Positions 3,478 to 61,056 of a DNA stretch of 64,000 nt are shown here, one piece after another; position 1 is the stretch's first letter; every line of letters begins with the position of its first letter. The DNA comes from an uncultured Oscillospiraceae bacterium. Lineage in GTDB: Bacteria > Bacillota > Clostridia > Oscillospirales > Oscillospiraceae. The DNA is taken from the NCBI GenBank assembly GCA_947631865.1, contig CANRNF010000004.1, positions 1 to 64,000 on the forward strand. The letters are read 5' to 3'. Made by a program: the position numbers and the translations under genes. The notes beneath the pieces were generated by a model. The model was not told the origin of the DNA, did no database searches, and saw nothing but the letters and a program-made list of their open reading frames with translations.

Positions 3478-3947
3478 TGGACAAGCTGAAGCTGTCGCTC
3501 CGGTGCGAGCGGGGAACGAAGTGTCCGCCCGAGCTGCGCCGGCGCATCAAGACCGCCGCCCAGGCGGTGCTGAAAGCCGAGGGCGTGGAGGAGCCTTGTG
3601 AGCTGTCTGTGCTGCTCACCGACGACGAGGGCATCCACGCGGTCAACAAGCAGTTCCGGGACGTGGACAAGCCCACGGATGTGCTGAGCTTCCCCATGGG
3701 GGACACCGACCCGGAAACGGGGCGGCTCCTGCTGGGGGATATGGTGCTGGACCTGTCCCGGGCGGAGGAACAGGGGGCCCAGTTCGGTCACGGGGCGGAC
3801 CATGAGATCAGCTACCTCACCGTCCACAGCGTGCTGCACCTGCTGGGCTACGACCATGTGGATGAGGGTCCCATGAAAAAAGACATGCGCGCCCGGGAGA
3901 AGGCCATCATGGCTAAACTGGAACCGGATACGGCGACGGAGGAATAA
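3477..3947 (+). CDS. ybeY: Endoribonuclease YbeY (rRNA maturation factor)
   Basis: A 156-residue protein with the family zinc-binding signature HSVLHLLGYDH (three histidines, about residues 118-128) and the upstream motif ADHEISYLTVHS. YbeY is a metal-dependent single-strand endoribonuclease acting in 16S rRNA 3' maturation and ribosome quality control. Its ATG overlaps the phoH stop. The last codons lie in a sequence repeated exactly just before era (3924-3945 and 4076-4097). The present TAA stop is created at the junction with an inserted element; without the insert the gene would have ended TGA two bases before the era ATG. Confidence 0.95.
   Translation: MDKLKLSLRCERGTKCPPELRRRIKTAAQAVLKAEGVEEPCELSVLLTDDEGIHAVNKQFRDVDKPTDVLSFPMGDTDPETGRLLLGDMVLDLSRAEEQGAQFGHGADHEISYLTVHSVLHLLGYDHVDEGPMKKDMRAREKAIMAKLEPDTATEE
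3924..3945. repeat. Left copy of a 22-bp direct repeat flanking hairpin element A
   Basis: These 22 bases, the end of ybeY, are identical to 4076-4097. The copies bracket about 130 bp that includes the four-hairpin element. This looks like a long target-site duplication, or a tandem duplication with insertion. The right copy supplies the GGAGGA ribosome-binding site for era. Confidence 0.8.
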
Positions 3948-3953
3948 TGGCCA

Positions 3954-4062
3954 GCGAAGCCCGGTCAGGGCGAGCCGCGCGGCATTCCCGCGCGTGAAGT
4001 CAAAAGCCGCTGTACGACAGGCTTTTGACTTCCTGCCGGCGGAATTCACTTCTGCCGAGCAG
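3954..4062 (+). repeat. Four-hairpin dispersed element, copy A
   Basis: A 109-nt stretch with close similarity to 60891-60998. It can fold into four consecutive hairpins: GCCC/GGGC; CGCGCGG/CCGCGCG; GAAGTCAAAAGCC/GGCTTTTGACTTC (13 perfect pairs); and CGGCGGAA/TTCTGCCG. Differences between the copies keep the pairing intact in hairpins 1, 3 and 4. It lies in the intergenic space of a co-directional operon, so it would be transcribed with ybeY and era. It has no plausible reading frame. It could be a REP or MITE-like element, an mRNA-processing site, or a small structured RNA. Confidence 0.8.
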
Positions 4063-4075
4063 TTTAAATATTATG

Positions 4076-4097
4076 CCGGATACGGCGACGGAGGAAT
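4076..4097. repeat. Right copy of the 22-bp direct repeat
   Basis: Identical to 3924-3945. It ends 4 bases before the chosen era start and carries the GGAGGA Shine-Dalgarno site. The insertion therefore left era translation signals intact while moving them about 150 bp from ybeY. Confidence 0.8.
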
Positions 4098-60656: not shown

Positions 60657-60867
60657 ACAGACCTTTGAGCAGTCCCTGGAACGGCTGGAGCAGATCGTAC
60701 GCCTGCTGGAGAAGGGGGACGCCCCCCTGGCGGAGAGCCTGGGGCTGTTTGAGGAGGGCACGGCGCTGATCCGCGCCTGTTCAAAACAGCTGGACGAGGC
60801 GGAACAGAAGGTGGTCCAGCTGCGCAAGGGACCGGATGGAGAGCCGGAGGAACTTCCCTTCGAGTGA
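60643..60867 (+). CDS. xseB: Exodeoxyribonuclease VII small subunit
   Basis: A 74-residue helical protein with the family core FEQSLERLEQIVRLLEKGD followed by APLAESLGLFEEGTALI. It forms long helical arms in the XseA-XseB complex. Start within the end of xseA. The second copy of the four-hairpin element lies downstream. Confidence 0.94.
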   Translation: MKKNEQTFEQSLERLEQIVRLLEKGDAPLAESLGLFEEGTALIRACSKQLDEAEQKVVQLRKGPDGEPEELPFE

Positions 60868-60890
60868 ATGGTTGGTAGGATTAGAGAATT

Positions 60891-60998
60891 GCGAAGGCCG
60901 GTCAGGCCGAGCCGCGCGGCATTCCCGCGCGTAAATCCAAAAGCCGCAATATATCAGGCTTTTGGATTATGCCGGCGGGATTCACTCCCGCCGAGCAG
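60891..60998 (+). repeat. Four-hairpin dispersed element, copy B
   Basis: 108 nt matching 3954-4062 with one gap. The hairpins are GGCC/GGCC, CGCGCGG/CCGCGCG, AATCCAAAAGCC/GGCTTTTGGATT and CGGCGGGA/TCCCGCCG. It has the same orientation as the operon, between xseB and ispA. Flanking duplication is not clear; only a short TCGAGT match (about 60869 and 61037) is seen. A further small hairpin, GTCAAAA/TTTTGAC, follows at 61013-61032. Confidence 0.8.
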
Positions 60999-61056
60999 AT
61001 CTGATTTGAGCTGTCAAAACATGGTTTTTGACAAGCTCGAGTAGAAAGGAGCGCAT

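Follow-up and report, generated by a model that had tools for sequence, protein, structure and literature searches.

A small multi-hairpin element with a conserved fold that works like a MITE in Oscillospiraceae genomes

Introduction

The REP and REPIN sequences with RAYT are hairpin repeats that are thought to move in trans. IS1272, which is placed in the IS1182 family, targets stem-loops and is reported to replace the target hairpin without a duplication (PMC5678879), while IS1182 is one of ten families over-represented between convergent genes in one survey (PMC9208149), an excess that fits the targeting of terminators. MITEs and the Yersinia elements YPAL/RU-2 are non-coding, strongly folded and 100-200 bp long with target duplications, those of YPAL measuring 3-26 bp at targets that span or adjoin dyad symmetry (PMC2229807); the pneumococcal BOX, RUP and SPRITE are folded interspersed repeats beside genes, and BOX gives the stop codon of some of them (PMC3049150); and IS1549/IS1634 produce long variable direct repeats of 8-514 bp (PMC2266710).

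Two copies of a folded element lie in the window, by which we mean the whole 64,000-nt stretch of contig CANRNF010000004.1 from an uncultured Oscillospiraceae bacterium that was analysed. In size, lack of coding capacity, strength of folding and target duplication the element is like MITEs and YPAL/RU-2, as far as these are described in the source cited. It is set apart from YPAL/RU-2, by description, through duplications of up to 64 bp within the genus and up to 113 bp among relatives, and also by its different lineage, its several separate hairpins and the IS1182 ends of one form. It resembles BOX, RUP and SPRITE in being a folded repeat interspersed beside genes, and copy 1 supplies the stop codon of ybeY in the manner of BOX, but the host is different and the likeness is one of description. 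Its long variable direct repeats recall IS1549/IS1634. Compared by description with REP/REPIN (PMC3116915), it is longer, with several hairpins and direct repeats. The long form shares its inverted repeat and type of target with IS1182-family elements of the genus. In contrast to IS1272, here the hairpin is often duplicated, and the element has nowhere near the length of a transposase gene; as IS1272 reportedly takes the place of its hairpin and leaves it unduplicated, the long form would be a variant of that mechanism.

Results

An alignment of the two cores (3954-4062 and 60891-60998) spans 109 columns and contains a single gap, in agreement with the about 109 nt originally predicted, and both cores fold into the four hairpins claimed, with z-scores of -6.03 (copy 1) and -6.60 (copy 2) and none of 200 shuffles folding as well. 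All base changes that had been reported between the copies were found in the alignment: a C-G pair of hairpin 1 becomes G-C, two pairs of hairpin 3 are altered, hairpin 4 turns A-U into G-C and G-U into G-C, and hairpin 2 is identical. The observation of the hairpin element at both places is confirmed, and its interpretation in the original prediction is, as a whole, partly supported. The predicted coordinates cover only the core, as the insertions extend over 3946-4075 (copy 1) and about 60866-61036 (copy 2).

3954..3975, + strand: hairpin 1 of copy 1 (fold, genus pairing alignment)
3976..3994, + strand: hairpin 2 of copy 1 (fold, genus pairing alignment)
3996..4032, + strand: hairpin 3 of copy 1 (fold, genus pairing alignment)
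4033..4062, + strand: hairpin 4 of copy 1 (fold, genus pairing alignment); with hairpin 3, the part common to the relatives in other genera
60891..60998, + strand: four-hairpin core of copy 2 (alignment, fold, match to covariance model R1)

Copy 1 is flanked by the genes for YbeY and Era. Downstream of copy 2 lies a gene for a farnesyl-diphosphate-synthase-like (ispA-like) protein, the best family match of which is below the cut-off; the 74-aa ORF before copy 2 we take to be XseB and the preceding 402-aa ORF XseA, both names being given by recognition. Consensus scans returned two promoter-like sites and one terminator-like site in the surroundings of copy 1 and no such sites around copy 2. 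A 58-codon ATG reading frame (window 60868-61044) crosses copy 2 directly after the xseB-like ORF and is probably due to chance.

The ybeY-era comparison covered 35 genomes of the genus, five of which were absent from the compared loci. The region is without the element in 27 of the 35, and in 17 of these 27 the two flanks of copy 1 run into each other with an overlap of 21-25 nt, as a target duplication would leave. This makes copy 1 an insertion of 130 bp with a 22-bp duplication:

3924..3945, + strand: left repeat of the 22-bp target duplication, at the ybeY 3' end (22-mers identical to the left and right of the element, single in sister genomes)
3946..4075, + strand: inserted short-form element, copy 1, 130 bp (comparison with empty sites)
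4076..4097, + strand: right copy of the 22-bp target duplication, identical to the left 22-mer

YbeY keeps its end because copy 1 completes a TAA stop, as against the TGA of the empty site. Two further genomes, G002 and G011, carry the element at the orthologous place. The ends of copy 1 are AATGGCCA and TTTAAATATTATG, and the inverted repeats of IS1182 were not found there.

Copy 2 is absent from the orthologous site of genome G033, where positions 1-266 and 438-699 of the query adjoin with a 6-bp overlap; no clear target duplication emerged from this comparison.

60866..61036 (approximate), + strand: copy 2 of the inserted element, about 171 bp, lying after the xseB-like ORF and before the ispA-like gene, absent in G033
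61008..61038, + strand: hairpin 5 of copy 2, with a right-hand IS1182-like end (TTTTTGACAAGCTC); the same hairpin occurs in long copies

The last bases of hairpin 5 extend past the border estimated from G033. The right IS1182-like end is present in this hairpin and the left one is not recognisable; copy 2 may represent a worn copy of the long type.

The claim that no named family has this structure agrees with Rfam, which is without a match to the element. The window gave no Rfam match at the gathering score, and E-value searches returned only matches below it, except for a 6S RNA neighbour at one locus of the family (L171). A few narrow searches of the open-access literature did not find the element. 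By DNA search, its own genome contains 15 near-full copies (L001-L015) plus fragments, and 23 of 60 genomes, its own included, were matched, one of them (G042) outside the genus. A covariance model, R1, was built from 14 own-genome copies, and it scores the two window places with E-values of 4.6e-27 and 1.5e-25, both having been training sequences. As the original prediction had proposed, searching with covariance models uncovered further copies in the genus and in other genera. R1 matched 24 of the 35 genus genomes at E<=0.01, those in G015 and G018 being weak throughout; the per-genome counts sum to 244, at most 110 candidates being scored per genome, and G032 holds the most copies among genus genomes (41). 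Among the matches listed, the named records with the 5' motif are uncultured Oscillospiraceae MAGs titled 'Lapin', which we read as rabbit.

The proposed covariation withstood comparison with shuffles. In an alignment of 100 genus copies (93 distinct), fitted to the model and thereby favouring structure, 99.5% of the pair cells pair, and sliding the partner by 1-3 columns lowers this to 32-48%. Two-sided changes occur in 18 of 37 pairs among the 93 distinct copies, a value reached by none of 500 shuffles; this alignment, too, is the model-fitted one. That pairing is what is kept, and not sequence, is supported in three groups, namely the genus copies, the copies from other genera and the matches of the g9 type. 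The cells of the genus alignment comprise 89 G-U/U-G against 12 A-C/C-A, which points to the strand as read; in numbers of pairs, however, G-U was seen in 7 and A-C in 10, and the surplus of G-U cells thus stems from a few columns of hairpin 4. Two-sided changes could also arise by template switching, to which hairpin DNA is prone: one arm would be copied onto the other, with the structure not being selected. Perfectly matched arms are indeed abundant, but arm copying alone would not account for the standing G-U pairs or for joints and loops that are conserved from genus to genus (GAGCAG, the ATTCA loop), and we consider this origin improbable.

The 100 copies comprise 32 of the long and 42 of the short form, 16 that add only hairpin 5 to the core and 10 that add only the 5' part, the long form consisting of the core, a 5' extension beginning with CAGACTGTCAAAGAA and hairpin 5. 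A quick tree requires 17 changes between short and long. By eye, L005 and L114 have the same flanks, one with hairpin 5 and one without it, as if it had been lost after insertion, while hairpin 5 of L254 and L335 is of different sequence and still pairs. In L169 (about 340-580), L170, L172, L178 and L179, hairpin 2 gives way to a folded domain of about 130 nt, which makes an extended form; this domain also stands alone in other genus genomes, where by eye it adjoins palindromic repeats. A transposase gene would not fit into its roughly 130 nt, and we set this enlarged hairpin 2 aside. The 6S RNA gene at L171 77-270 (Rfam RF00013, E 4.1e-13) adjoins an extended-form copy.

Direct repeats flank 28 of 94 genus copies (score >=17) and are not detectable in the other 66; controls scored at most 14 apart from one 18, and 94 of 97 rows were kept, L016, L017 and L150 being dropped. 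Of 44 copies in which the script's pattern recognised hairpin 5, 16 had repeats, and of 50 in which it did not, 12 had them, although one of these 12, L134, is a long copy by another reading. In the hairpin-5 copies, 14 of the 16 repeats are strong hairpins of 26-38 bp with a dG of -19 or lower (exceptions L156 and L166). The repeats of copies without hairpin 5 measure 20-64 bp, and several include a gene end. Comparison of L103 with the empty site L287 of another genus MAG places the insertion within the last codons of a gene, with the element giving the stop.

The long form is linked to IS1182 by its ends and its targets. An insertion sequence at L353 (G033) has the inverted repeats CAGTCTGTCAAAGAA, a duplicated terminator hairpin and a transposase of the IS1182 family (NF033551 above the cut-off, E 1.8e-121; Pfam PF13751, PF05598). 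Long copies carry the terminal CAGACTGTCAAAGAA or CAGTCTGTCAAAGAA, as compared with CAGTCTGTCAAAGAA in this element, and their right end fits the inverted repeat less well (TGAGCTTGTCAAAAAA). Among 48 distinct long-form copies, 45 have a hairpin with dG <=-15 directly against their right end and 30 have one against their left end, whereas random windows taken from the fetched loci gave 54 of 200; by eye, the ends of other IS1182-family elements also mostly come after hairpins. The long form thus has IS1182-type ends and sits at terminator stem-loops that are often duplicated, like the IS1182-family elements of the genus. Because inverted repeat and terminator-hairpin target are shared with these, the long form is, judged by sequence and target, a MITE of the IS1182 type, presumably transposed as such. 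Transposase matches of the family occur in 14 of the 35 genus genomes, many as fragments, and none was found at E<=1e-10 in G002, which is 97% complete and has 22 copies. The own genome contains three IS1182-family pieces (L380, L390 and L395; G000:C39), two of them with stop codons.

Other partners and routes were considered. An IS1634-type partner was chosen for its long variable repeats (PMC2266710), but in contrast to that system none of the 35 genus genomes has an IS1634-family transposase above the cut-off, and four have weak matches. A closing stem joining the element ends was rejected in three forms, as own pairs were no better than swapped ones; swaps as good as the own pairs numbered 108 of 200 (long), 30 of 200 (short) and 57 of 200 (5' part only), and own pairs were better only in the 16 hairpin-5-only copies (3 of 200). 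Viral spread was likewise set aside, with no exact pattern match in viral contigs and no phage match for the relative L458.

Beyond the genus, R1 matched 15 of 394 genomes of the order, the own one included, several of them in genus g46 of the same family and in g9 of another family. A second model, R2, was made from 17 sequences of other genera, out of 19 fetched loci of the same family (L456 and L467 left out). In the window it matches only the two places at E<=1 (1.9e-8 and 4e-7); as its sequences had been found with R1, the two models are not fully independent. R2 matched 14 of 16 chosen genomes, with up to 68 matches in one, and these include G119, which R1 had missed. Common across genera are hairpins 3 and 4 with the GAGCAG joint, and the ATTCA loop is also kept. 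In the model-fitted alignment of 41 copies from other genera, 96.4% of the cells pair, with two-sided changes at 16 of 27 pairs. The corresponding values for 31 g9-type matches, likewise model-fitted and including weak ones up to E 0.01, are 91.2% and 35 of 37 pairs; here 2 of 11 hairpin-4 pairs fail in 27 and 28 of the 31 rows through a register slip. Some relatives stand in tandem, two or more in a row (L438, L440, L448, L513), and one lies on plasmid pMM59_01 of Pusillibacter faecalis (L472 3001-3079).

The footprint was readable in 37 of 40 fetched copies from other genera (L510, L511 and L533 were dropped for want of an anchor), and 33 of the 37 have direct repeats of 26-113 bp (score >=20; controls 24 once, 12 otherwise). 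In these 33, representing 31 distinct repeat starts with shifted orthologues still included, the 3' border is constant, at 36-46 nt (sd 2.8) from a point that lies 22 nt beyond the hairpin-4 anchor, and the 5' border varies, from 56 to 152 nt ahead of the anchor (sd 18.8). For 28 of the 33, the end of a sense ORF of 100 codons or more falls within the left repeat or close to it. The repeat end lies within 2 nt of the stop codon in 16 of these 28 and runs at least 40 nt beyond it in 4, with a terminator included in the three inspected. Four of the five without a long sense ORF (L505, L506, L507, L516) have repeats that by eye look like antisense gene starts, and the fifth, L522, has too little left flank. 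In 6 of the 33 (L503, L509, L516, L520, L523, L525), the right repeat takes in the end of an antisense ORF of 100 codons or more, either additionally or in place of the sense ORF. A repeat that ends at the stop may reflect insertion there or faster divergence of the non-coding parts; L524 speaks for a sharp edge. Among the fetched loci there was no clean empty site for these copies, the nearest being L513, with two elements, compared with L520, with one.

An inverted copy of the repeat start, X', precedes the element in 15 of the 33 at 7 nt or more, against 12 of 1056 and 8 of 1221 in controls, about 1%. Such a footprint would suit an RNA-templated, SINE-like retroelement, whose structured RNA would be the template for DNA synthesis from a nick in the target, as in target-primed reverse transcription; the fixed 3' end, the variable 5' ends and the long duplications would follow, and X' would be the free 3' end folding back. 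The domain RVT_1 has matches in 14 of the 35 genus genomes, including one in G032 with its 41 copies. It has none, however, in six genus genomes with 14-26 copies each (G000, G002, G010, G011, G033, G007), of which G002 is the sole one more than 90% complete. Moreover, the genus copies are without X' (longest anchored match 4 nt in 28 copies, in which short spacers of 1-32 nt weaken the test), and some of the 5' variation may represent insertions and not truncation. We hold such a retroelement to be very unlikely, and we give as little credence to its extension, an order-wide superfamily of bacterial SINE-like elements at transcript or ORF ends with a fold-back target copy, in which one genus later captured IS1182 ends.

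Both copies had been described as lying in transcript orientation. This holds in the window, but as a rule for the genus it does not, being a tendency only: the upstream gene of 49 short-form copies is sense in 29, antisense in 17 and undecided in 3. The copy starts within 40 nt of an upstream sense stop codon in 24 of the 49, and an antisense stop is as near on the other side in 10. Among all copies counted here, in the genus and beyond it, many are orthologous between species (e.g., L002/L095/L115, L167/L168 and L526/L517), so independent events are fewer than the counts given throughout. The proximity to sense stops, the position of 28 of 33 other-genera relatives after a sense ORF and the pairing kept in three groups could be understood if the element were a functional 3'-UTR RNA (processing, stability or attenuation), kept by selection after insertion, with a fold that reflects host use and not mobility. 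Many copies are antisense, though, and the examined sites of both window copies are empty in sister genomes, so neither site needs the element. We regard a host function of this kind as unlikely.

Discussion

The element is dispersed, the places into which it inserted are unoccupied in sister genomes, and target DNA was duplicated by copy 1. Of the options left by the original prediction, the non-autonomous mobile element is the one borne out by empty sites, target duplications and dispersed copies. We propose, with a probability of roughly 0.75, that both places in the window arose by insertion of a small, non-autonomous mobile element whose multi-hairpin core is conserved, that its long form is moved by an IS1182 transposase, and that the fold is needed in the single-stranded state. 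The long form would be mobilised in trans by an IS1182-family transposase, which may cut at the feet of a stem-loop, so that gap filling copies the whole hairpin. Copy 1 would belong to a short form without IS1182 ends, similar forms of which have variable direct repeats of 20-64 bp. The fold may be kept because the mobilising machinery or the transcript of the element needs a single-strand structure. Counting against this proposal are the reported lack of a duplication in IS1272, the 66 of 94 copies without a repeat, the short form without IS1182 ends, the rarity of intact IS1182 genes in carriers and the closing stem, which was not supported.

The element works like a MITE, its fold is conserved and Rfam is without it. 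It is an abundant repeat of gut Oscillospirales, situated at gene ends, with a fold kept across genera. The footprint in other genera, which combines insertion at ORF edges, long repeats and X', corresponds to no transposition scheme that we know. With the long form, IS1182 target choice at terminators gains an example in which the hairpin is duplicated and not replaced.
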